From contig JARLJU010000017.1 of the NCBI GenBank assembly GCA_031291055.1, positions 62,001 through 126,000 of the forward strand: DNA of 64,000 nucleotides. Direction: 5' to 3'. Each line of letters opens with the position of its first letter. Position 1 is the stretch's first letter. A program made the position numbers and the translations under genes. Shown in pieces: positions 6,941 to 29,214 of the stretch. Source of the DNA: Rudaea sp. (GTDB taxonomy: Bacteria; Pseudomonadota; Gammaproteobacteria; Xanthomonadales; Rhodanobacteraceae). The notes under the pieces were generated by a model, which saw only the letters and a list, made by a program, of their open reading frames with translations, did not search any database and was not told the DNA's origin.

Positions 6941-7163
6941 GTACACCAAGAGCGGACTCTTGCCATGGGCCGCTCCGGGTCGACTGCGGAAAGTCAGATT
7001 GGTTACAGACAACCGTTATCAGGCAGCACCGTACCCACAGCCATACTTCTAGCGACCGATGTAGATAAATTGCGCCATGACGTTGGAAAATGGCGCTCAA
7101 CAGCGATCGTGACCTTTGAAAGTAACGTATCATCTGGACGCCCGTAGAGCGGCCAAAGCAATT

Positions 7164-7194
7164 GGTAGTGTCTATTTCAAGCTGAGACACTACC
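7164..7194. repeat. Perfect 10-bp inverted repeat (GGTAGTGTCT-N11-AGACACTACC)
   Basis: Direct reading of sequence. Confidence 0.9.
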
Positions 7195-7332
7195 ACGCAA
7201 TCGATCGGCACTTGTTCGCAGATGCAAGACGCATGAATTGTCGCATCGCTTTTGCCGCCATGCTTGCACTCATGCTCGGACGACCTCGCTCGATGTTTTT
7301 CTACAACGCCCCAACCACCGATGGAGATTGCC

Positions 7333-8154
7333 ATGCAGCTTCGCTCATGCTGCTTGCTTCTGTGCCTCAGCCCAACGCTGTTCCCAACCGCGTATGCAGC
7401 AGATACAAGTGCGATCGCCGAAGCAGGTGTCAAGCTGACGACTTCGCCGTATGACGCGTCGGCAAAGTTTCGTGCCGTTCACATCGATACGCTCGACCCA
7501 CATTTGCAACACGTGTTTGAAGCGGCACGGATTGAGTGGCTGAAGGTCCTTGCTACACATAACACAACGGACGGGCGCGGTTTCTTTTTTCAGCGTGACC
7601 GCAGCACGTTGCTGACGTTGCGATCGTTCAATTCGTTCACCGAATACGACGCGCTGCGCGCTTTTCGCGCCAGCGTCGGAACTCGCATTGGTCCCGAAGG
7701 AGAAAAAGCAGGGCAGCAATACGATCAGGGCGACGTTGCAATTACGTTCCCGCACAACAGCGAGGTATGGTCGCGCAACGAAGCGTTCGATTATCACGCG
7801 CCCGGACCGGCCCTCAACGAATACACCGCGGGATTCATGCAGATGGTCCTCGAGCACGTGCGCTCTGACGATTACGAAGCGGCGTGGAAGGAGATGCGCG
7901 CGGCGCTTACGACCGTCAAGTACCCGATCAGCCGGATTGGATTTTTCAGCATGCTGGGGAGCGGCAAACAGATCAGCGTGTGGCTTGCCCCGGATCGAGC
8001 GACTTTCCTTGGTGCCGGATCTCCGGAGGAAGCAGTGGCGAAAGTGCTCGGTAAAGCAAAAGCCCATGCTCTACTCAACAGGCTCAAAGAGGCGGGTAGC
8101 CACGTAGAGATATCTGAACTGGTTCCACGGCCTGAATTGAAGAGCCCCGAGTAA
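7333..8154 (+). CDS. Secreted hypothetical protein
   Basis: Signal peptide MQLRSCCLLLCLSPTLFPTAYA; long ORF with coding-like composition. Confidence 0.7.
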   Translation: MQLRSCCLLLCLSPTLFPTAYAADTSAIAEAGVKLTTSPYDASAKFRAVHIDTLDPHLQHVFEAARIEWLKVLATHNTTDGRGFFFQRDRSTLLTLRSFNSFTEYDALRAFRASVGTRIGPEGEKAGQQYDQGDVAITFPHNSEVWSRNEAFDYHAPGPALNEYTAGFMQMVLEHVRSDDYEAAWKEMRAALTTVKYPISRIGFFSMLGSGKQISVWLAPDRATFLGAGSPEEAVAKVLGKAKAHALLNRLKEAGSHVEISELVPRPELKSPE

Positions 8155-8235
8155 TCGTCGAAACTGCCTTGAACGCAAACGTTGACCTCCGTAACCTTTT
8201 TCCGTGGCCGGCAACCGACGGCCGCAAAGCAGCCG

Positions 8236-8590
8236 CTCGCCAGAGACAGGTTCGGGTCGATAGGAGCCGCTCGCGCCGACGAGAATTGCCCAGGATTATT
8301 TTCCCTGTTCTTTCCCTGATACCGCCCTGTTCCTTCCCTGTTTCGACAAAAAAATTCCTTGTTAGTTTTCAGCAACAAATCGGCATCGATACTCCGCAAA
8401 CCGCATAGCGTCGGTGTTTTTTGGCAGCAGCCTGCTGCCCTGCCCCACCAGAATGATGATTTTTCCCTGTTATTTTCCCTGTTAGCAGGGAATTCCATCC
8501 GGAGACGAGTTCGCCGGAAACTGTAACCAACGCCACGCAGACTAGCGAGCGGAGACATAGTCTCCAGTTCCCCTGGCAACGGCGCACCAG
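8236..8590. repeat. Dispersed repeat family A, copy 2
   Basis: Alignment with 2353-2705; same ordered TTCCCTGTT series and GAGACATAGTCTC dyad. Confidence 0.85.
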
Positions 8591-8641
8591 TGTGGGCTTG
8601 GCGGGTGCCCAAGCAGACTGAAGTCGCCAAGCGAAGGTAAC

Positions 8642-16233: not shown

Positions 16234-17616
16234 TCACTCAAACCCGGAAGCAAAAATTCTGTCGTCAGCCTCGACATAGACATAGCCATCCATGCCGCCC
16301 TCATTGGCGACCGGACCCGAACCGAAATCAATGTTGCTGCTGAAAAAGCCACCGGAAACTATGCGTCCTTTGGGGTCGACAGCCACGCTCAAGACTTCTT
16401 CTGCTCCGGCACCGCCGATGTTGGAATAGCCGAGATAAGAACCGTCGGCTCCTTGAATTGCTCCGACGAAGGCATCGGTCGAGCCGGCACTGGTGAATGG
16501 CATCCCGAATGCTGTGCCGGAATCCGAAAGGGACAGTCCAACATAGCCGCGATTATTTGTACCCACCGCGAGCGAGCACGGAGCGCTGGCGGTGGTCGAG
16601 CCCACCTCGGCATCGACCGCCCACAACGGCTGGCCACCGGCATCAAACTTGGCGACAAAATAGCCCGTGGCAGCCTGAGAAGTCAGCATCGTGGAACCAA
16701 AGCTAACAGTGCCTTGGTAGCTGCCGCACAACCAGATGTTGTTACTGCCATCGATCGCGACCGAATATCCGATCTCATTGCCGCTCGACCCGAAGGATTC
16801 GCTCCAGACGGTGTTGCCGCCCGAGTCGAATTTCGCCAGGAAAATATCGAGGCCGCCTTCGGAAGTAAGCTGCCCCAAGCCCAAGTCCATGCTTTGCTGG
16901 AATGCTCCGGTGACGACGACATTGTTCGACCCATCGGTGGCGATGCCAAGCGGCAATTGCGTACCCGCGCCACTGAATGAACGCATCCATTGCGGGATCC
17001 CAGCGGAATTGAGGCCCACGAGGAAACCATCCGTTCCACCGGCGCTCATCATGCTCAGACCACCGATCGTGAACATGCCGGTCGTGCTGCCGATAAGCAA
17101 TACCTCGCCCGCCGAGTCTAGCGCCACGCCAGTCGGCGAATCGGTCGACGTGCCGCCAGCCGTCTCGGACCAGAGAAACTGACCCAGCGAATTGAAACGG
17201 GCAAGAAAAACATCCGAGCCACCCTGCGAAGTGAATGCACCGGCGCCGAAATCGATGCTTCCTGTAAAGTTGCCGGTGATGATCACGCCAGTGGAATCGG
17301 CGGCTGCGCCTACGCTGGTCTGCGTCTGATTGCCAGCCAACGTGCTTGACCACAGGCAATTGCCGCTGCTGTCGTATCGCGTCAGAAAGACTTCGCTGGA
17401 TACGCCGCTTCCTCCCTGCATTCCACATTCCCCTAAATTGACCGTGCCTGTGACGTTGGCCAATGAATAGATCGCGCTGCTGGAATCCGGGACGACGGCG
17501 ACTACGGATTGATCCTGTGGGTTCCCGATTGTGTCGGCCCAAACGGTGTAATAGGGTGTGGCAGCGGTTGCTGCCAGCGGAAAACCCGCCAGCAATAGCA
17601 TTCCGACCACGGCCAT
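16234..17616 (-). CDS. Secreted SBBP/beta-propeller-repeat protein ending DDRIFASGFE (ORF open from 17727)
   Basis: Signal peptide MAVVGMLLLAGFPLAATAA; recurrent SGGSDVFLARFNSLGQFLWSETAGG-type repeats. Confidence 0.85.
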   Translation of the reverse strand: MAVVGMLLLAGFPLAATAATPYYTVWADTIGNPQDQSVVAVVPDSSSAIYSLANVTGTVNLGECGMQGGSGVSSEVFLTRYDSSGNCLWSSTLAGNQTQTSVGAAADSTGVIITGNFTGSIDFGAGAFTSQGGSDVFLARFNSLGQFLWSETAGGTSTDSPTGVALDSAGEVLLIGSTTGMFTIGGLSMMSAGGTDGFLVGLNSAGIPQWMRSFSGAGTQLPLGIATDGSNNVVVTGAFQQSMDLGLGQLTSEGGLDIFLAKFDSGGNTVWSESFGSSGNEIGYSVAIDGSNNIWLCGSYQGTVSFGSTMLTSQAATGYFVAKFDAGGQPLWAVDAEVGSTTASAPCSLAVGTNNRGYVGLSLSDSGTAFGMPFTSAGSTDAFVGAIQGADGSYLGYSNIGGAGAEEVLSVAVDPKGRIVSGGFFSSNIDFGSGPVANEGGMDGYVYVEADDRIFASGFE

Positions 17617-17730
17617 AACATTCGGTACGCGACTTGCTGGTGATATCGGCACGAGAATCTCCCAGACGACGTGTTCACGCGACTCCCAATAGATGGGTGA
17701 ACGTTTGCCGATATGAAATACGAACATTCC

Positions 17731-19170
17731 CTATCTTGAAAGCTGCGCGCTTGCTGCCTCTTCCAGCAACGCATCGAGATCGGCCCGCCGCAGGAGGCGG
17801 CCGTCGAGCAGCACCGCATTGATGCGCCGGCTGTTGCGAATGTCTTTGGCCGGATCTGCGTCGAGCAGCAGCAGGTCGGCGCGCTTGCCGACTGCAACCG
17901 AGCCGGTTGTCGCGGCAATGCCGAGGAATTCGGCCGGCGCAAGCGTCGCCGAGTACAGGGCTTCGCGTGGTGTCAATCCCGACTCGACCAGCATGGCCAT
18001 CTCCTCGTGCAATGAAAAGCCCGGGTAGACACCGGGCATCGGTGAGTCGGTTCCGGCCAGGATCGGCACGCCGGCATCGTGCATGGCGGCCGCGATCTTG
18101 CGCGCTACCGGCCAGCGTTTCCGGGCAAGCGCCGCATCCTGCGCCGTATAGCCGGCAAGGAATTCTTGCCAGCGCACGCGTTCGTCTGCGCGCAGATATC
18201 GCCAGCGTGGATCGGTGCTCATCGATCCGCTATCCAGCGAATCTTCGTTGGCGAGCACCAGCGTCGGAACTTGCGCCTGGCCGGTAGCGAAGAGGTTTTT
18301 GGTGACGTGCTGGCAGACATCCGGATCGAAGGCAGCGAGCACCCGCGCTTCCTGTGCGTCGCGTCGTTCAACCAGCGCGTCTCCTTGCAGGTCGAGGCGT
18401 TCGTGCAGCAGTTGCGCTTCGATGGACGAACATGCCTCATATGCCTGCATCAGATGCTCACTACTGCGCTGTCCCGCAGCGGCCGCGTCCAGCAACGTTA
18501 CTCCCGCCGGGACGTGACCGGCGACCGGCAACGCGCGCGCCTTGGCTTCGGCAAGAATCGCACGCCAATGTGAAACCGGCACTTCGGAAAAGACCTTGAT
18601 GAAATCGGCGCCCGCGTCCGCGGCGGCATCGACTCCACGGGCCGCGTCCTGCGGCGATTTTCCGTACACGGCGATTCCAGCGGCAAGGATCCGTGGCATT
18701 GCGATTTCGCCGGCGTCCAGGGCCTTGCGCCATCGCGCCACGAGTGTCATCGCCGTCGCATCGGTGCGCATTTCGCGCACCGCGGTGACACCATTGGCGA
18801 TATACAGTGGAAAACTCCAGTCGTTCGGCGGACGGTGTGAAGAAAGGTTGAAGAAGTGGACGTGCATGTCCACCAGACCTGGGATCAGGAATCGCCCGCG
18901 TCCGTCGACGCGCAGCGCCTGCGCTGGAATGTGGGCGTCGCGTACAGGATCGATAGCAACGATACGACCGTCATTCGCAATGACGGTGCGCGAACCGCTC
19001 GATCGGCCGCGCGTGACATCGACGACCGTCACGTCGGTGATCGCGACGGCTTGCCGCTCGGGCAACGACCGGGCCTGCGCGGCAGCGGTCCACACAAACA
19101 ACGCCGCGATACCGAAAATGAATTGCGGTGCCGCCCGTCGTGCGGGATGCGAGCGCACTGTTCGCTTCAT
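17731..19170 (-). CDS. Secreted metal-dependent amidohydrolase
   Basis: FLIPGLVDMHVHFF, GHVPAGVTLLDA, LAGTDSPMPGVYPGFSLHEEMAMLVESGLTPREAL, GKRADLLLLDADP. Confidence 0.9.
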   Translation of the reverse strand: MKRTVRSHPARRAAPQFIFGIAALFVWTAAAQARSLPERQAVAITDVTVVDVTRGRSSGSRTVIANDGRIVAIDPVRDAHIPAQALRVDGRGRFLIPGLVDMHVHFFNLSSHRPPNDWSFPLYIANGVTAVREMRTDATAMTLVARWRKALDAGEIAMPRILAAGIAVYGKSPQDAARGVDAAADAGADFIKVFSEVPVSHWRAILAEAKARALPVAGHVPAGVTLLDAAAAGQRSSEHLMQAYEACSSIEAQLLHERLDLQGDALVERRDAQEARVLAAFDPDVCQHVTKNLFATGQAQVPTLVLANEDSLDSGSMSTDPRWRYLRADERVRWQEFLAGYTAQDAALARKRWPVARKIAAAMHDAGVPILAGTDSPMPGVYPGFSLHEEMAMLVESGLTPREALYSATLAPAEFLGIAATTGSVAVGKRADLLLLDADPAKDIRNSRRINAVLLDGRLLRRADLDALLEEAASAQLSR

Positions 19171-19681
19171 TGGTCGTATTCCTTGCACCTGATCCATACT
19201 GTAGCAATTGTGCCCCGTCCGGCATCATCGGAGGCGAGGGTTGCAGAGATCACGTTGAAGCGCTACAGGGTTTACCCGATGCCTGACACTCGCGGGCGTC
19301 CGCTTAGGGTCTTTGTATCGTGCGTACGCTCCCATGGAGCAGTGCTGAATATAGTCGGCAATACTGCTTGCCAAGACGGTTACGGCCGCTGGGTCAACAA
19401 TCGGGCTCGGAATTCGCAGCAGCCGTTCCGGCGACGCGAACGTGCAACGCATCGGGTCAGGCGAATGGGCACGCTGCAGAAATTCACGTCCGTGCACGCA
19501 TCCACTCACAACCTCTTCAAACACAAGCGCCATCTCATCGATCGCATGACCTCCAGTTTCGATGTATTGGCGGCGCGCACTCAAACCGCGACACGCCTCT
19601 ACCGGCCGCCCGGAGCGTCCGACCTCGACCCCGACCAGGCCTGGTCAGGACGTCGGCTTACGAATCGAGGCAATATGCGAA

Positions 19682-20542
19682 CTACTCAAAACCATCTATG
19701 AATAGGTCATCGCACTGATTGGTCGGATCAGGAACCGCCCACCAGGGTGCGTATCCGGTTGCGGTATTCCAGTCGGTATTGGCGGTCATGGTTAACGGGT
19801 TGGGGCAGAATCCGGACCCGCCCGCCACTAGACTGTTCGGACTCGGCGCGGCCGGCACGGCTCCGGTGAGCTTGTTTCGACCGACATTGAACAGCGACAG
19901 GCCCGACAGTCCGGTCAATGCAGGGATGCTGCCGGTCAGCTGGTTCGAACTCACATTGAAAACCACCAGACTCGATAGTTGAGTCACAGCGGGTATGTTT
20001 CCGCTTAGTTGATTGGCGCTGAGATTGAAATGGCACAAGGTCGGCAAGTTGGAGAGATCCGGGATCGAGCCGGTGAGCTTGTTGTTGTAAATGTAGAAAT
20101 AACTAAGCTGGGTCAACCCGGCTATAGCCGGGATGTTGCCGGTAAGCTGATTGTTAAACACGAGGAAATTTCCGAGATTCGTAAGATCGATCAATGGCGG
20201 AATGGCGCCGGTTAGTTGATTGGTGTCGACATCGAAGTTTTCGATGTTCGTCAACGGCGCCAGCGAAGGCAAAGGCCCGGACAGGTTGTTGCTCGCAAGT
20301 TCGATGCTTGTCACGTGCGACTGCGCGCCGTCGCACGTCACCCCGAACCACATGCATTCCGTTCCCGCAGCTCCATTCCAGCCTGAACTATTGATCCACT
20401 TCGGTCCATTTGTATTTGTATACAAATTAAGAAGTACTTGTCGTTCGGACCCGGGAATGGCGGCGTGCGCAGCAGCCACTGCAAGTAGGTAGATGATGCC
20501 GTGGCGCCATGCCTGACGCCGAGCAAGCTTCGACTTAGTCAT
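19682..20542 (-). CDS. Secreted leucine-rich-repeat protein ending CDDLFIDGFE
   Basis: Signal peptide; LNLYTNTNGPKWINSSGW...WFGVTCDG; LTGSIPxLxxLxxL repeats. Confidence 0.9.
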   Translation of the reverse strand: MTKSKLARRQAWRHGIIYLLAVAAAHAAIPGSERQVLLNLYTNTNGPKWINSSGWNGAAGTECMWFGVTCDGAQSHVTSIELASNNLSGPLPSLAPLTNIENFDVDTNQLTGAIPPLIDLTNLGNFLVFNNQLTGNIPAIAGLTQLSYFYIYNNKLTGSIPDLSNLPTLCHFNLSANQLSGNIPAVTQLSSLVVFNVSSNQLTGSIPALTGLSGLSLFNVGRNKLTGAVPAAPSPNSLVAGGSGFCPNPLTMTANTDWNTATGYAPWWAVPDPTNQCDDLFIDGFE

Positions 20543-21125
20543 AACGTTCTCCCGCGTGAGCCTTCGCTACCCGCTATGGTTCGTGCGCTCCCCGCCACAT
20601 TTGAGAAAGTAGTCGAGTCAGCGAGGGCAAACCCCCGTGTTTGTGGTTTGGCCGGTCTTGGCGACATTGTTGCCACCGCTCGTCTGAGCATACCCAAGCT
20701 GAAGCCAGTTGCCGGCGTGCGCAAATGACCGGATGGAGGTGCGGTCAGAACCAGAAGCGTTCCCGATGGAGAATTCGTGCTCACAGCACGCTCCTACCAG
20801 AGAAATCGCCGTGATCCTAACACCCCGGAAGCTTCGATTCTGTGAACTCCAAGAGCAATTTATATCGACAATGCGCGCAGCGGTCCTGACCATCACGCTC
20901 GAGCAGCCTCGGCCACCGAGGTAAAGTAACAGCGTGCTAGCGGATGTCGACAAGACATCCCGAAATGTTGACCAACCCGCTGCAGGCGGCACCACCCCGA
21001 AAATGGTAAGTGCAAGCATCCGCGTCGCCGCAACCCGCGAAATTTCATGTGTCGTGATCAACCTCCTTTCATTCGAGGCTGGAAGCCTCTCGACGCGTGC
21101 CGGTGGAGCAATTGCATCGATTGGG

Positions 21126-21659
21126 CTATTCAACAAGTCCGTTGGCGAAGAGCGTGTCGACAAAGCTGCCGCCGATATCGATCGCAAAGTTGTTGGTGCG
21201 CGACAGGTCGTAGTTTCCGAGCCCGGTGAACCCGTCGCCAAGCGTTCCGCTCCCGAGATTTTCCGCGAGGGACAGGTTGTCGAACGCTTGCACAACCAGC
21301 GCGTCGGTTCCTCGGCCCAAAGTCAGACTCAGGGCGGAGTCTGGACACGGGCTTCCATTGAGCGATGGCGGCATGCGGGCGCCATCGTCGTTGCTGGCGA
21401 GAAATGTTGCCGAGGGGCCAGCGCCGACAAAAACGCAGATAGACGGATCGAACCCGCCTGCAGGAATGACTACACCGGTCAGATTGGTGCCGCCCGGCGC
21501 ACCACCACTTCCACCGTATCCGTAGCTTTGAATCGTGATTGCAGGGGCCGCCGATACGGAAAATTCATACGTCGCCGTGTCATTGGCGACGCCTGCACTG
21601 AGCGCCAGCGCACCCGGCCAGGAAGTGGAGGCCGCAGACGCGACGTCGCTCAAGACCAA
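21126..21659 (-). pseudogene. DVUA0089-like secreted protein, apparently missing its N-terminus; ends VDTLFANGLVE
   Basis: Mature-domain-like sequence from a TTG codon, no signal peptide; in-frame TGA just upstream. Confidence 0.45.
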
Positions 21660-21802
21660 TCGAGCAGGCCAGATAGCCAGGCCCGGAGTAGATCGTGCAC
21701 GCGTTACTAACAGATGCGAGCATTTTCAGCGTGCTTTGAAAGATCTCGCGCCGAGCGCACAATCATCACGCGGCCAGTCCGGTCGTCCCGAAGGAGAACA
21801 GC

Positions 21803-22054
21803 ATGACTGCGGAGTCGCTCATTGTCTTTTTACTGATCGGCGCAGTTGCCGGATGGCTTGCCGGCGTTGTCGTCAGGGGTGGCGGATTTGGCTTGGTCGG
21901 CGACATCATCATCGGCATCCTCGGTGCCTTTGTAGCCGGGTTGCTGCTGCCACGGCTTGGCCTCGGCCTGACAGGCATCGCCGGCGAAATTATCTATGCG
22001 GCGATCGGAGCGATCATCCTGTTGGTCGTAATCAGGTTGATCAAGCGCGTGTGA
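21803..22054 (+). CDS. GlsB/YeaQ/YmgE-family stress-response membrane protein
   Basis: IGAVAGWLAGVVVRGGGFGLVGDIIIGILGAFVAG. Confidence 0.9.
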   Translation: MTAESLIVFLLIGAVAGWLAGVVVRGGGFGLVGDIIIGILGAFVAGLLLPRLGLGLTGIAGEIIYAAIGAIILLVVIRLIKRV

Positions 22055-22333
22055 CGATTTGGTGCAACGGAATCGAAGGGGCCGGATAGATCCTTGTCTG
22101 GCTCCTTCACGTTGAATGCGTCAAAGCGGCGGACCGGCCGCGACTTCTCGATCCTCGGCATTCACAAGAGCAGATGACTCCAATGAAGGTTCTCCGGGCA
22201 GCCGTTTCCGTTCCGCGAGCCTGGCGTCGGCGTAGAGGCAGGTTCGCTCGCAAAGTTTCTTCGATGCCCAGCGGAGGAACGTCGTTGCTCACCGCGGATT
22301 TATTCGCGGGGGTGTCCCGATGCAGGCAAACAT

Positions 22334-23542
22334 CTATTCGGCAATCGCATACTTTCGACAATGCGCCAGATAACCGGCTTCGTGACGCGCGACCAGGTCC
22401 ACGACGCTCGTCCACAACCAGGAAGGCGCATCAAGGGACTTGGAGTAAGCCCGGCTCAATTCATTTGTCCAAACCCGCTTTGTGCCCGAATCCATCTGGC
22501 GCCAATGTGCCCGGCCGACGACGTGAGCCAGATATCTGGCGACGCCAATGGCGTCTTCGTACGTCAACCGCCGAATGTCAAACTTGATGTCCTGTGGCAG
22601 GAGTTCGCGGATGAAAACAGGAGCATCGGCAAACCGGGTGGCCAGCATCCGCTCGCCTAAGTGGGGAGACAGATGGCGGGCGCCCGTGACCACTCGCTCG
22701 GCGTTGTCTCGCGGCATTGCAACCTCCGCGGAACGAGGAGCCGCCGCCATCACTGCTTGCTTGATATCGACCAGGCACAGGTCGGCTTGATCCACGTTTT
22801 GTTCATTTGCGCCGATCCCAGCGAGCGCGACCATTCGCATGCCTCCCAGGGAACTACACCCCTTCACCCAATATGCAGCGTCCAGCAACACGACGCCGCT
22901 ATCGGAATCCCGATGCCTGAGCTTGGTCAGGAGAACCCGCAGGAGCTCTTCCCGGAATAACCTCGCGACTGCCGATCTTTCCGATTTCAACAGCGGCCAG
23001 AAGGTCTTGCCGATCGGGATGGAAGGACTGACGTCCTCAAGGCGTTCCTGCGCCAGGTGCCGCCAACGACGCCGCAAAGCATTCTTGAACGTCTTGTTGA
23101 TTATTGCCGGCGCCGAATATCTTTCCACCTTCGAAGTCAGCGCCCGACGATATCCGGCCATGGCCGCTTCGAGCATTCGGGCCGTCGTCACGCCCGGCAG
23201 ATCGGATCCACGCGCGACCATTGCCAGCGAAAGACCCAACCGGACAATATCGTGCGACGGATTTCCGATCACGGTTTGATCGAGATCTCGAATCTGCACC
23301 TCGACATTGCCATCTGAATCCGATACCGGACCCAGATTGCCGATGTGGCAGTCGCCGCAAATCCAAATGTCAGGGCCGACGGGTATTTGCCGACCACCAG
23401 CAGATTCCAGCCACTCGTAAAATTGCGCCGTATTGCCGCGGACGTAGGCGTGTGCTGATGCGGCCATCTTGAGCGAGCGTCGCGCGGAAAGCAGCCTGGT
23501 ACGAGCCCGTCGAGTTCGCGGCGCAGCGTACTTTGCCTTCAT
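22334..23542 (-). CDS. DUF2252 family protein
   Basis: FYEWLESA...GDCHIGNLGPVSDSDGNVEVQIRDLDQTVIGNPSHDIVRLGLSLA. Confidence 0.85.
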   Translation of the reverse strand: MKAKYAAPRTRRARTRLLSARRSLKMAASAHAYVRGNTAQFYEWLESAGGRQIPVGPDIWICGDCHIGNLGPVSDSDGNVEVQIRDLDQTVIGNPSHDIVRLGLSLAMVARGSDLPGVTTARMLEAAMAGYRRALTSKVERYSAPAIINKTFKNALRRRWRHLAQERLEDVSPSIPIGKTFWPLLKSERSAVARLFREELLRVLLTKLRHRDSDSGVVLLDAAYWVKGCSSLGGMRMVALAGIGANEQNVDQADLCLVDIKQAVMAAAPRSAEVAMPRDNAERVVTGARHLSPHLGERMLATRFADAPVFIRELLPQDIKFDIRRLTYEDAIGVARYLAHVVGRAHWRQMDSGTKRVWTNELSRAYSKSLDAPSWLWTSVVDLVARHEAGYLAHCRKYAIAE

Positions 23543-23791
23543 TCAACACTCCATGCGCAATTGATGTGGTGCCAAGTGCCGTGCCGCAGCCGATCTCGAC
23601 GCACAACCGATCCAGATGTCACTTTGCCGCCAGTCGCGAACGCCACCCCATTGTGCGCTCTTTTGTGGCTTCCATTGCCTTTTCCCGAGGTGGCCGAGGG
23701 GCGACCATCGCTTTCCGGATAGATCGCGATCAAGAGGTTGCGTTGCAGGAAGACAACTCGTTCCAGGTGGGTTCGTCCGGAACGGCTTGCT

Positions 23792-25039
23792 TCACCGCAG
23801 CGGCCCCTCGCCCTGTTCTGCCGCTGGCGGCACAGGCTTCGCGCGGAATGGGAACATCTGCTGGTTGAGGAAACCGTCCGGCATATAGTCGCCAACCACG
23901 CCGTACTTCTCCGGAAACGGTTTGCTTGCTGGCACTTTCACGGCGGTACCGAAAAGATGATCGAGAAACGCGTAGTGCGCCGCGTAGTTGCGATCGATGG
24001 CCTCGTCATCCGAGGCGTGGTGCCAGTGGTGAAAATCCGGAGTGACGATCACGTACTTGAGTGGCCCCCAGGGCAGATGCACGTTGGCGTGATTGAACAC
24101 GGCCTGGAAGCCGACAATGATGATATAGGCATTCACGACGCTCTCGCTGAACCCGAGCACGAATAGCGGCGCCAGAACCAGGATGCGCGTGACGACCAGT
24201 TCGAGCATGTGCTGGCGCGAACCGGCCAGCCAGTCCATCGTCTTCGCGCTGTGGTGCACCGCGTGATAGCGCCAGAAGTACGGCACCTCGTGATAGGCGC
24301 GATGCGTCCAGTATTGCGCAAGATCGGCAACCAGGATGCACAGCAGAAGCTGCGGCACGAACCAAATGTGCTGGACAGCCTGTTGGAAATCGCTGCGCAC
24401 GAGCCAGCCGAAAACGTGGTGAATGAGAAAATTTACGGTGAGCAGGATCAGACCGACGAGGAAATGATTGATCGCGAAATGCTTCAGGTCGGTCTGCCAC
24501 TCGGTGCGAAAGACCACCTGTTCCTTGTACAGCGGGAAAAGCTTTTCGATGACGACGAACAACAGCGTCGACCCGAGCAGGTCGAGAATGAACCAGTCCA
24601 GGCCGATGTACGGCGTGTGATCCGGAAAATCACCGACCGGCACACGCGAGCCGCCCAGTGCGACGGCGAGGAACACGAACGCGAACGCCACGGTATTCAG
24701 AGTGCGGCGATTTCCCAGAATCAGATTCGCCAGAGACAGACCGCCGGCGACCAGCAGCGCGAAGAGCAGCGTCTGGCGCAACACATCGACCGAGTACTCG
24801 TGACGCAATTCAGGTGTCGTCAGGTATTGAGGGAAATGAAACGCCAGAACGCCGAGCAGGCACAGGAACCCCAGCGACAGCGCAATTACCGTCGCGATGA
24901 TGCCTTGGCCGAATTTCATTCCGCCACTGCGCCCGAGCAGATCTTTGGTGTCTCCAACGGTCGAGCCGACCGCGTTCGCACGTGCCTTGACGGCACTGAC
25001 CAGCTTATAGGCAAGCGGAGTACGAGCCGGTGTCGGCAT
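23792..25039 (-). CDS. Sterol desaturase / fatty-acid-hydroxylase superfamily membrane protein
   Basis: His boxes HRAYH, HAVHHSAKTMDW, FNHANVHLP, DFHHWHH. Confidence 0.9.
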   Translation of the reverse strand: MPTPARTPLAYKLVSAVKARANAVGSTVGDTKDLLGRSGGMKFGQGIIATVIALSLGFLCLLGVLAFHFPQYLTTPELRHEYSVDVLRQTLLFALLVAGGLSLANLILGNRRTLNTVAFAFVFLAVALGGSRVPVGDFPDHTPYIGLDWFILDLLGSTLLFVVIEKLFPLYKEQVVFRTEWQTDLKHFAINHFLVGLILLTVNFLIHHVFGWLVRSDFQQAVQHIWFVPQLLLCILVADLAQYWTHRAYHEVPYFWRYHAVHHSAKTMDWLAGSRQHMLELVVTRILVLAPLFVLGFSESVVNAYIIIVGFQAVFNHANVHLPWGPLKYVIVTPDFHHWHHASDDEAIDRNYAAHYAFLDHLFGTAVKVPASKPFPEKYGVVGDYMPDGFLNQQMFPFRAKPVPPAAEQGEGPLR

Positions 25040-25326
25040 GGCGCCAGGTCCGAGGAGTAGTTGGCATGTCCCTAAACGCCCGACGGCGCGCGTTCCGGAC
25101 AAAGGCAGAGTACGCGCCCACCTGCGTTTTGGGAAGATCGCCAGCAAGAAACGTTTTGCCAAAACGGCGCCGTTGCCATTGGCTCAGCCCATCGACGCCG
25201 GCATTACCACCACGCATCGATGACGGTTCCTGGAAAATCGAGCGGGCGCTGTTCCATGCAAACCGAGTGCGCAGACTGCTTCGCTCAAGACCCCGAGAGG
25301 TGCCGCTCCTCGGTTGTCGTTGTGCG

Positions 25327-26250
25327 TCAACCGTCCTCGACCTGGATGTCGTGGAATCGTGCAAGGTTCACGTACAGATGCCGCGGATGGTCCCCTTCGG
25401 CAAAAATATCAACGAAACGCCTATCGAACTCAATGTCCTCGTGCGCGTAGTCATGGCGCGCAGTGATGCCCGCGGCAAAGGTTTCATCCACCCCGGAGAT
25501 CGTTACCGCAAGACGCATATCGCCCTGTTCGAACTGCTGGGCGGAAACGCCGTAGAGCGGGCTGGTCTCGTCGATGCGATGCATGATCTGCCACGTGAGC
25601 GCAAACATCGGCGAGCGGGCACGTTCGAGCTTCAGGTCATAGAAGCGTCGCAGGCTGTGGCCATCCGTGGTCTCGGCGTCGCGCACCAGCACGAGCGACG
25701 CTACTGCTTCAAGGATATAGCTGTGACGCTGATTGGCCACGCGCAGCATCAACGTCGGTATGCCTTCATAGCTGGTGATTACTACGATCCGGCTGAACAG
25801 TATCCGCGCTGTCGGCTTTGAAAATCGCGCGAAGACAAGGCTGGTCGTCACCGCCAGGCTCAACATTCCGGTCATGATCTCGGCCGTGGCGATGCAATGG
25901 CCGTAGAACGTGGCGGGACTCATATTGCCGTAGCCGACCGTGGCCAGAGTCTCGACACTGAAGAAGAAGCAATCGGAGAAAGAAACGGCATTCTTGACGG
26001 CATGATTGCCGGCGAAATAGGCAGACGCGAAAACAAGATTGACCGCGACATACGTCGCCACGGCGCCGGCGAAAAAACGCGGCCACGTCAACGACATGAT
26101 CACATGATAGGCATCGTGCCAGTCGAAATGCGGCACACCAAGCTTGGTGACTTCCGTCTTGCCAAGCTTGACGGTAATACCCGGACGGCGACGGGATGTT
26201 TCTTTCATGTGCATTCGGAACACGGGGAACGAGGCGTAGGGAATATGCAC
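25327..26250 (-). CDS. Inward-rectifier-type (KirBac-like) potassium channel
   Basis: Selectivity filter FSVETLATVGYGNMSP; cytoplasmic Kir-like domain. Confidence 0.9.
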   Translation of the reverse strand: MHIPYASFPVFRMHMKETSRRRPGITVKLGKTEVTKLGVPHFDWHDAYHVIMSLTWPRFFAGAVATYVAVNLVFASAYFAGNHAVKNAVSFSDCFFFSVETLATVGYGNMSPATFYGHCIATAEIMTGMLSLAVTTSLVFARFSKPTARILFSRIVVITSYEGIPTLMLRVANQRHSYILEAVASLVLVRDAETTDGHSLRRFYDLKLERARSPMFALTWQIMHRIDETSPLYGVSAQQFEQGDMRLAVTISGVDETFAAGITARHDYAHEDIEFDRRFVDIFAEGDHPRHLYVNLARFHDIQVEDG

Positions 26251-26561
26251 CTAGCAGACCCACTTGGCTACCACGACCTTGGCGCGCATGGAAAATCGCC
26301 TTCCGAAGACGGGCGATGCATACTCGCCGATCGACCTTGCCCGCCACATCAGCGGCGTGTCGGTGCGGTTTGTTGCGGTTGCGTATGGGCTATCCCGCAG
26401 CGGATGCGAACAGCGCAGAAAATGGACATGCGCCCGAAATGATGAGCGCCTGCCAGGCGCAGCCGCGTTCAATGCCCGGCTTGGCGTCCATTCGGTGGAG
26501 TGATCGACAGCGTTGCCGGCCACAACCGCTGTGACCGGCGCGACGCCGCGCGAAGCAGCGC

Positions 26562-26978
26562 CTAGTCGTCGGCCTCGACCTTGAAGTGCACGGTGCCCGA
26601 CGCCTTGCCGTCAATGAACAAGTCTACGCGATACTTGCCCACCGGCCAGCCGGCAGTTGGCTTGCTCAGCGAAAAGGTCGCCACGTTCGTCAGCATGCCG
26701 ACATTGAGAGTGACGCTGTCGATCTTGTAGTTGGCTGGCGCGACGCCGCCAGTGTCCTCGGCAATCCACGTCGAGCTCAGCTTCGATCCACTGGCTACAT
26801 CGACGAGACCGGCATGCAGAAAAATCTTGGCGGTGTCGGGTGCAAACGATTCCATCGCATCGCCATCTTCGCTGTCCGACAACTTCAGATCGGCATAGTG
26901 CGGCGCGCCTGCGTAGGCGGCCGTTACCAGCAACAACGCGAGAAGCGCTGTCAGTCTCCTCATCCACTGCAGTGTCAT
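26562..26978 (-). CDS. Secreted hypothetical protein
   Basis: Signal peptide MRRLTALLALLLVTAAYAGA; beta-sandwich-like sequence. Confidence 0.7.
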   Translation of the reverse strand: MTLQWMRRLTALLALLLVTAAYAGAPHYADLKLSDSEDGDAMESFAPDTAKIFLHAGLVDVASGSKLSSTWIAEDTGGVAPANYKIDSVTLNVGMLTNVATFSLSKPTAGWPVGKYRVDLFIDGKASGTVHFKVEADD

Positions 26979-27068
26979 GATCTATCTCCCTTGAAAATGC
27001 ACAAGTTACCGAAGATGGGGACGGGGCGCAGACGCGGGTATCCGGCTGCGGCCACGCTTCCGCACTGA

Positions 27069-27413
27069 CTATTCCGTAAATTCGATCGGCTCGTCCAGAT
27101 CGCGGCAGAAGTCCTGCTTCGAGGGCTCGCTCCAGCTGCCATCGCTGAACTTCGCTCGGATCCACTGGTGACATTTTTCATCGTTGGTGCTGCTGGCCCA
27201 TACCAGGGTCACGCGTTCACCCGGACCGATTCCGTCGCCGATATCGAAATTGCCCCATTCCTGCTTGTCCTGGGATACCTCCAGCTTGGTGATGTTTGAT
27301 TCTGTCTTGTTCTTGACTACGAAATGCCATTGGTCCGCAGCATTGGCGCTCAGCGTCAGAAGGCTGATCGGCAAGCAGGCCAGGGCGACGCGAATTGTAT
27401 TCTGAATGGACAT
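27069..27413 (-). CDS. Secreted hypothetical protein
   Basis: Signal peptide MSIQNTIRVALACLPISLLTLSANA; 114 aa. Confidence 0.65.
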   Translation of the reverse strand: MSIQNTIRVALACLPISLLTLSANAADQWHFVVKNKTESNITKLEVSQDKQEWGNFDIGDGIGPGERVTLVWASSTNDEKCHQWIRAKFSDGSWSEPSKQDFCRDLDEPIEFTE

Positions 27414-27801
27414 CGGGGGTACCTCGTCGGTTGGAAGAAAGAAGTGGATTTGACGGCTCGTTCCGTTCAGGAGCAATTGAAGCCGCAAGCCAAGCATAGC
27501 AGCAAGAACCGGGCCATACGTCCGATAGCGGAACTTGCCGCGACGTACCCGCGATTCTATCAGCAGCTCGGGTTGATTGAATGTGCTTCGCCATCAGCGG
27601 TAGGTGATCCGCATGCCTGTTGTCGATCAACCAAGGCAGCGACGAGCACGATGGGACGACGGCGGCGCTGCGCGCCAGCTATGGTCGCTGCTGGTCAGTT
27701 TGATGCGCCTGGCGCGTGCCGGATTGAACATATGAGCGCGATGACGCCCGAAGTTCCATGCCGGCTTGCATTGCCATGGGCTCGCCCCGGCAAAAACTCG
27801 T

Positions 27802-29214
27802 TCAAAACTCGAAACCGTCGCCGAAAATGTTATCGCCCGGAAACTCGAACGCGCCAATGTCCACGACGCCATTGCGGATTCGGGAAAAGCCCGTCTGATC
27901 GGTCTGCAGTGGCTGCGATGCCGCATTGACGGCCAGAGCATTGCTGCCGGCGTCGATCGCAGGGCTGCCGATCATCAACGCCATCGTTTGCGTGTCGCCG
28001 CCGTTGTTCGCAAGCGGCTTCAGGCCCGGCGTATCAGTGAACACATTGCCATTGCCGGAGTCCGGTCCGCTCGAGGAACTCCCGAGCAGGCTGAAAGCGG
28101 CACCGAAGGCTCCGGCTTTGATACGGAGGTCCGGCATGGCAGAGGCATCGCCGACGATCGAGGCGCTGTTGGCCGAGAGAATGCTGTTGTGCAGCGTCAG
28201 GCTCGCCGAGCTGTGAATTCCGATCAGCGCGCCGCCGGCCACGAACGCAGCTCCAGCGTTCGTGGTTGTCGCGGAGTTGGAAGATACGGTCGTGTTGGTG
28301 AGCGTCATGCCGTAGGAGCCGGCCGACGTTTGGCTTTCGATCAGTGCCCCGGCAATGAAATCGTTTCCGGATGCGGCATTGCCGGCGATCGTTGAGTTGA
28401 TGACGGACACGGCGCTTCCAATCGCGTTGATCCCGCCGGCGCCGTCCGCAACGGGGCTGCTTGCCACCGCGGAATTCCCCGAAATTGTGGAGCCGATGAT
28501 GACCACCGTACTGCCGTTGGCGATGGACAATCCGCCACCGCAATAGCCGCTGGAGCACGCCGCCGTATTTTGCGACACCGTGGAATTGGTCAACGTTGCG
28601 CGGGAACCGTCGATGATCAGACCTGCACCCCCGCTTCCGCCGCTCAGCGAGTTGCCCGCGACCACCGCATTGGTCAGCGTTGCATTGCCGTAGCGGATGG
28701 CCATTCCGCCAGCGCCAGTGCCTGACCGATTCGAAATCACTCTTGAATCGGTCAGTGAAATTGACGCCTGATATCCGTACAGACCGGCTCCCGGTCCGCT
28801 CGAATTGCCGCCGGTGATCGTGAGATCACGAATGCTCAGCGCGGCAACGGTATACATCGCGCGCGAGGCGCCCGCAGCATCAATCGTCTGACCACTGCCC
28901 ACCATTGTCATTGGTGCGAACATGACAAGCTGGCCTTGGGCGAGCGTGATCGTGCTGTTCGCCAGGCCTGGACCAAAAACGATTGTGTCGTTGTCGCCAA
29001 ATGGGCCGGCGATGGATCCTGCGCATGCGGGAACAGTGGCGCTGTTGCCGTTGTTGATCGCTTTGATTGCGTTTCGCAGATTGCAAAACGCGGACGCGGA
29101 CGCGTCATCACTGCTGTTGACGGTCACCGTCACCGCATCGACGCCCGTCGCAAGGCAAAGCGCGATAGCCAGCGCAAGAGGGCGGCGCAAAGGCACACTC
29201 ACCGAGATCGACAT
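27802..29214 (-). CDS. Secreted right-handed beta-helix (choice-of-anchor-Q/CSLREA-like) protein ending GDNIFGDGFEF
   Basis: Signal peptide; SDDASASAFCNLRNAIKAIN; repeats of LTNSTVSQNTA/IIGSTISGNSA; FSRIRNGVVDIGAFEF. Confidence 0.85.
   Translation of the reverse strand: MSISVSVPLRRPLALAIALCLATGVDAVTVTVNSSDDASASAFCNLRNAIKAINNGNSATVPACAGSIAGPFGDNDTIVFGPGLANSTITLAQGQLVMFAPMTMVGSGQTIDAAGASRAMYTVAALSIRDLTITGGNSSGPGAGLYGYQASISLTDSRVISNRSGTGAGGMAIRYGNATLTNAVVAGNSLSGGSGGAGLIIDGSRATLTNSTVSQNTAACSSGYCGGGLSIANGSTVVIIGSTISGNSAVASSPVADGAGGINAIGSAVSVINSTIAGNAASGNDFIAGALIESQTSAGSYGMTLTNTTVSSNSATTTNAGAAFVAGGALIGIHSSASLTLHNSILSANSASIVGDASAMPDLRIKAGAFGAAFSLLGSSSSGPDSGNGNVFTDTPGLKPLANNGGDTQTMALMIGSPAIDAGSNALAVNAASQPLQTDQTGFSRIRNGVVDIGAFEFPGDNIFGDGFEF

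Follow-up and report, generated by a model that had tools for sequence, protein, structure and literature searches.

A nine-residue tag on unrelated exoproteins of Lysobacterales as a probable export signal of a second type II secretion system

Three predicted exoproteins of unrelated folds, encoded by the window (the whole analysed stretch of 64,000 nucleotides, positions 62001-126000 of contig C19 in a genome of 5.07 Mb and 371 contigs), end in almost the same nine residues. We consider it probable that T2SS-b, an order-specific second type II secretion system (T2SS), uses this motif, D-x-[IL]-F-x-[ND]-[G, less often S or R]-F-E, as a portable linear signal for export. Tag and T2SS-b co-occur among the genomes of the order. 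Export would proceed through T2SS-b rather than through the Xps-like system of the same cell, and the tag would contact the PDZ domain of GspC. For the more specific model, in which a dedicated GspC binds the nine residues by its PDZ domain, so that dozens of unrelated exoproteins are recruited in folded form in each genome while receptor and tags co-evolve, we see the chances as evenly balanced. The original prediction, a short tag for sorting, secretion or processing with a dedicated factor, is supported, T2SS-b being the candidate factor by co-occurrence; among these three roles, secretion is now favoured.

In the window, the C-termini read EADDRIFASGFE (stop at 16234), NQCDDLFIDGFE (19682), FVDTLFANGLVE (21126) and PGDNIFGDGFEF (27802). 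The near-identical ends reported for three secreted proteins of unrelated folds were confirmed at the positions given in Table 1, and so were their signal peptides, which are present from a plausible start in each case; in the first protein an internal ATG near residue 38 may be the true start. The fourth frame had been regarded as a variant of the tag. It does carry an altered tag (GLVE), but with neither an ATG start nor a clear signal peptide in addition to that alteration it is probably a decaying copy. A single-sequence AlphaFold model of the leucine-rich-repeat protein had a mean pLDDT of 51, too low to interpret. Between the tagged genes sits a gene for a KirBac-type inward-rectifier potassium channel (25327-26250). 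When a factor gene was sought beside the tagged genes, the neighbours in the window proved to encode an amidohydrolase, a DUF2252 protein, a fatty-acid hydroxylase, the IRK-type channel and an RlmL-like methyltransferase. Nor did the low-tag genomes examined show any plausible factor recurring near tags.

Table 1. Tagged genes of the window (positions within the window) and T2SS-b genes of the same genome (locus L276 on contig C306, outside the window).
Feature	Location	Coordinates	Strand	Remarks
Tagged exoprotein 1	window	16234..17727	-	SBBP beta-propeller, signal peptide, 497 aa
Tag DRIFASGFE of exoprotein 1	window	16237..16263	-	last residue abuts the stop exactly
Tagged exoprotein 2	window	19682..20542	-	leucine-rich-repeat, signal peptide, 286 aa
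Tag DDLFIDGFE of exoprotein 2	window	19685..19711	-	last residue abuts the stop exactly
DVUA0089-family protein	window	21126..21659	-	probable degenerate tagged gene
Altered tag DTLFANGLVE of DVUA0089-family frame	window	21129..21158	-	GLVE
Tagged exoprotein 3	window	27802..29214	-	beta-helix, signal peptide, choice-of-anchor Q domain (residues 396-458 of 470)
Tag DNIFGDGFE of exoprotein 3	window	27808..27834	-	immediately after the choice-of-anchor Q domain; followed by one F, then stop
gspC (T2SS-b)	C306	8605-9558		
gspD (T2SS-b)	C306	9589-11733		
gspE (T2SS-b)	C306	11730-13211		
gspF (T2SS-b)	C306	15247-16452		

Searching the genome with the degenerate pattern HTNTTYNNNRNYGGNTTYGAR ([ILMVF]-F-x-x-G-F-E) bore out the original prediction and returned 41 matches, against none for the reversed pattern; the count is a lower bound because the TCC serine codon in the ASGFE of exoprotein 1 is missed. 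Thirty-two of the 41 lie 0-9 residues from the stop, where about 5% would be expected (binomial P about 4e-33). Three look like chance matches (L022, L035 and L036) and six are internal or N-terminal. In L012 (G000:C71:80070-83090) the motif directly follows the signal peptide and forms the mature N-terminus, and in L026 (G000:C108) it is close to the N-terminal end of an esterase-like frame (sequences FMDCLFFDGFEDSG and CAHPDAIFIAGFESG, respectively); since these two motifs are N-terminal, the terminal position is not strictly required. The remaining internal matches fall between domains. Tandem tags also occur at one C-terminus, CDVIFINGFESDVIFRNGFE in L066 and DLIFKNGFESDIIFKDGFE in L176, both ending at the stop.

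Among 67 C-terminal tags from many genomes, in which G, F and E were demanded by the search pattern, D stands at -2 in 49, the next hydrophobic position is I in 51 and L in 16, and the first F is fixed; the position after it is free and is followed by N (37), D (26), S (3) or T (1). Relaxed searches found S or R instead of G, and D instead of E. Between 0 and 11 residues follow the tag, usually 0-4, and none in 26 cases. The 34 amino-acid words of these 67 tags are written in 66 distinct DNA words and all wobble positions are variable. Selection is therefore at the level of the protein, and for the same reason we rejected a DNA element located at gene ends. The view that the tag belongs to no named family stands as well: we found no NCBIfam or Pfam model for it, an NCBIfam scan of tagged proteins gave no match on the tag, and we found no publication describing the motif.

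The proteins that carry the tag are diverse. In the window's genome they include SBBP, Kelch and DUF5122 propellers, leucine-rich-repeat proteins, GH44, proteins with DUF11 and Big domains, the choice-of-anchor Q protein, M12B-like (reprolysin) and M10-like metalloproteases and an S8 subtilase with an InhA-like domain; many are typical exoenzymes. According to a crude predictor, 68 of 96 complete tagged frames (71%) have a signal peptide, compared with 210 of 791 other frames at the same loci (27%; P about 5e-17), which agrees with the expected enrichment among signal-peptide proteins. By the same crude predictor, the tagged proteins thus have the cleavable Sec or Tat signal peptide of T2SS substrates. 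A shared C-terminal domain was rejected as the source of the motif, as the hosts belong to many unrelated families and domains end before the tag; the NCBIfam choice_anch_Q domain of the 27802 protein and the DVUA0089 domain of the 21126 protein both stop just short of it. Neither of the two outcomes named beforehand as fatal to the idea, a lack of enrichment at the C-termini of secreted proteins or a homologous C-terminal domain, was therefore observed. One family of short signal-peptide proteins (L040, L041, L059, L067, L145) has the tag, as IFF-[ND]-[GS]-FE, ahead of a short tail that contains a conserved cysteine (FEGCGQ, FEDCGS, FEDCKP, FEGCKP or FEACP).

The tag is confined to the order Lysobacterales (Xanthomonadales) and patchy within it. 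In 369 genomes of the class, high counts were found only in the window's own order, the rest being near background. When 85,462 named species genomes were scanned for the tag plus a stop codon, the result pointed the same way: among the matches listed (117 stretches) most are from Lysobacterales (Marinicella, Dokdonella, Tahibacter, Rudaea, Pseudofulvimonas, Pseudomarimonas and MAGs), and some are from MAGs labelled otherwise. Most genomes of most Lysobacterales families hold about 10 to 90 copies. The tag stays at background in most of families f2 and f8 and in more than half of f1, and congeners of the window's genome are among those without it. Most matches in low-count genomes are due to chance, with the exception of G044, which uses an RFE form of the tag.

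A secretion gene co-occurring with the tag had been proposed as a check, and a second, PDZ-bearing T2SS was found. With GspD as the sole factor family profiled (TIGR02517), all 19 tagged genomes first tested had two full-length T2SS secretins (one of those of G013 is a contig-edge fragment), while tag-free genomes of f1 and f8, including some of the same genus or family, had only the Xps-like one. The gene order of T2SS-b in the window's genome is rho, rhlB, gspC, gspD, gspE, two other genes, gspF, ftsE, ftsX, rpoH, and the synteny rho/trx-rhlB-gspCDE(F)-ftsEX(-rpoH) is conserved: all of the first 12 tagged genomes to be fetched have the locus, and none of the eight T2SS loci fetched for comparison matches it. 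Its GspD is a secretin by its Pfam N0 (5.4e-29) and Secretin (4.5e-50) domains and its score above the TIGR02517 cut-off. Its GspC combines a T2SSC domain (PF11356, 5.5e-25) with a C-terminal PDZ_2 domain (1e-6), as fits a GspC, and the GspC-b profile finds its best PDB matches in GspC proteins of the OutC, PulC and EpsC type. GspE and GspF are recognizable as ATPase and platform protein (T2SSE 8e-148, T2SSF 3.7e-59). The fetched 20-kb loci hold only C, D, E and F, and no pseudopilins GspG-K or GspL/M were found within them; these components may be shared with the Xps-like system.

In a GspD tree, all 14 T2SS-b copies fall on one side of a branch (93/96), and the nearest other secretin, from the untagged f2 genome G056, is 36% identical. 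Both tagged f2 genomes (L312 and L313) have the T2SS-b gene order of the other tagged genomes. This common order argues for one ancestral locus that would have been lost repeatedly, rather than transferred.

We then compared GspC-b profile scores with tag counts in 250 genomes of the order, with cut-offs of 150 bits and at least 6 tags. At completeness of at least 95%, 58 genomes have both, 112 neither, two GspC only and four tags only (Fisher P 5e-39, kinship ignored); at completeness of at least 98 the figures are 46 both, 104 neither, one GspC only and one tags only. The weight of this co-occurrence rests on the patchy pattern within f1, f2 and the window's genus. GspC-b is present in all six tagged genomes among the 52 of f1; of 53 f2 genomes, the only two with the tag, G482 and G624, are the two with a full-score GspC-b and a T2SS-b locus; and the tagged and untagged genomes tested in the window's genus likewise sort by T2SS-b.

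The discordant genomes are of several kinds. G508 has a broken contig with an end piece of GspD-b, and G443, G453 and G596 are incomplete. Three f8 genomes (G450, G456 and G488) have a few genuine C-terminal tags and no detectable T2SS-b GspC or GspD; the system may have been lost recently, or the other T2SS may be used. Conversely, T2SS-b is present and tags are undetected in G473 and G617, and G457 has T2SS-b with very few tags, one of them IFSHGFE. A de novo search for another tag, covering about one tenth of each genome, yielded one IFSHGFE tail in G457 and none in G473. In four f10 genomes of 1.3-2.1 Mb from an RFE-using genus (G480, G571, G592 and G607) GspC-b is divergent (108-122 bits) and the tags number only 1-5, which looks like a system that shrinks along with the genome. 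The co-occurrence may also be due to some other gene whose gains and losses went along with those of T2SS-b.

A further line of evidence comes from a change in the tag itself. In genus g30 and in G528 (f10) nearly all tags end in D-R-F-E, the share of RFE being 68 of 71 in G433, 43 of 45 in G490, 35 of 39 in G528 and 36 of 37 in G044. The sister genera keep GFE, with no RFE in G446, G458 and G470; G551 is mixed (7 of 41). The same residue has thus changed across dozens of unrelated genes, as a shared receptor predicts. At two columns the PDZ domains of RFE users have D and E/D, whereas the others mostly have N or S, and S or R. It is suggestive that extra acidic PDZ residues go with RFE; the change amounts to a single evolutionary transition, which G551 shares in part.

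Food for thought is how such a tag could work. T2SSs move folded periplasmic proteins through a secretin, with the GspC PDZ domain and GspD sharing in substrate choice (PMC12369372, PMC7949064, PMC11981180); recent papers state that T2SS cargo has no known conserved linear signal and is probably recognised by its structure (PMC12369372, PMC7949064, PMC11981180). EpsC and OutC need their PDZ domains for some substrates only (PMC12369372), and in PelI a loop of 9 residues acts as a secretion signal and touches both GspC and GspD (PMC7949064). A tagged protein would be exported by Sec through its predicted N-terminal signal peptide and would fold in the periplasm with the tag exposed as a tail, or occasionally as a linker or N-terminal extension. 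The tag would then recruit the folded protein to T2SS-b, perhaps being read by the GspC PDZ domain, and the pseudopilus would push the protein through the secretin GspD, a step established for T2SSs generally. As far as can be judged from sequence, the tag appears to stay uncleaved. Tags with up to 11 trailing residues and internal tags are a misfit with canonical PDZ binding of a free C-terminus. Some tagged proteins may also be retained at the surface, and secretion alone would not account for this.

That misfit bears on the alternative that the tag is indeed a T2SS-b signal, read by the N0-N2 domains of GspD, the pseudopilus tip or an unlinked adaptor instead of the GspC PDZ domain. Classical PDZ ligands are C-terminal, which some tags are not; the N-domains of GspD add to T2SS specificity, and the PelI loop contacts GspD as well as GspC (PMC7949064). 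Nevertheless, the PDZ domain is the part of the T2SS best linked to substrate choice (PMC12369372) and it is at PDZ columns that the RFE clade differs, so that we find a receptor elsewhere conceivable but doubtful.

Another possibility would be to see the tag as a signal for surface anchoring or C-terminal processing, addressed to an enzyme that acts on T2SS-b cargo, with the T2SS merely as carrier. Some hosts have choice-of-anchor Q or DVUA0089-family domains, which in other settings stand in front of exchangeable anchors. GlyGly-CTERM proteins use a T2SS too (PMC13393428), and lytic proteases of Wenzhouxiangella have been inferred to be held at the outer membrane (PMC7691419). The tag, however, has no hydrophobic helix or basic tail and occurs in internal, tandem and directly post-signal-peptide copies, and we judge such a role unlikely. 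The least probable explanation, to which we give hardly any credence, is that the tag caps a structure or is a tail under no selection that recombination has spread, and that it matches T2SS-b by lineage only. Some of the discordant genomes would suit it; unrelated folds with the same tag, DNA words that are nearly all different, the like patchiness of tag and T2SS-b in f1 and f2 and the concerted switch to RFE all speak against it.

Cargo recognition by T2SSs is a long-standing open question. If the tag is an export signal of T2SS-b, as we propose, the cargo set can be predicted with a regular expression, is paired with an identifiable machine and comes with natural variants of tag and receptor (GFE, SFE, RFE), and recognition is therefore directly testable with short peptides and grafts. 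The secretomes of hundreds of Lysobacterales genomes would become readable from sequence, and the tag could possibly serve as a portable export tag for non-pathogenic hosts. Should the step between peptide and receptor be proven, this would be, to our knowledge, the first proteome-wide linear T2SS signal.

Several known systems resemble the tag in part. GlyGly-CTERM/rhombosortase, PEP-CTERM/exosortase and MYXO-CTERM/myxosortase are likewise many-to-one C-terminal tags on diverse exoproteins, patchily distributed and placed after exchangeable domains. In those systems, however, the motif is accompanied by a transmembrane helix and a basic tail, and an intramembrane enzyme does the processing, whereas our tag comprises about nine soluble residues in an optionally terminal position and is paired with a T2SS. 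The original distinction from PEP-CTERM, GlyGly-CTERM and LPXTG signals is upheld, given the 0-11 residues, most often none, that follow the motif; the helix and basic tail expected there, also for MYXO-CTERM, are missing, and no NCBIfam CTERM model matched the tag in the scanned proteins. Type IX secretion of Bacteroidota also joins unrelated signal-peptide proteins to a dedicated outer-membrane machine by a common C-terminal export signal. That signal belongs to another phylum and takes the form of a folded domain some 70-100 residues long, whereas the tag is a 9-residue motif in Gammaproteobacteria and the regions upstream of it belong to unrelated families instead of one homologous domain of that size. 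Type I substrates lack an N-terminal signal peptide, which the tagged proteins have.

Closer to hand is the Xps-like T2SS of the same cell (L277), a system that occurs in tagged and untagged genomes alike. Its GspD shares only about 27% identity with GspD-b, and no Pfam match was obtained for its N-type component; XpsC of Xanthomonas has a single helix where the PDZ domain would be (PMC11981180). In L277 (G000:C212:28001-48000) a signal-peptide gene at 7081-8640 follows the Xps-like cluster, and the nanopod S-layer gene npdA has been reported adjoining gsp clusters (PMC10765051). The likeness to npdA in position suggests a division of labour between the Xps-like system and T2SS-b. The nearest counterparts are EpsC with VesB in Vibrio cholerae and OutC with PelI in Dickeya. 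The cargo there is again folded signal-peptide exoproteins, the PDZ-bearing GspC of T2SS-b is homologous to OutC, PulC and EpsC, and in PelI an exposed loop of nine residues serves as the signal. Those signals are structural, composite and specific to a single substrate and share no linear sequence (PMC7949064, PMC12369372), whereas the tag is one linear motif carried by dozens of unrelated proteins.
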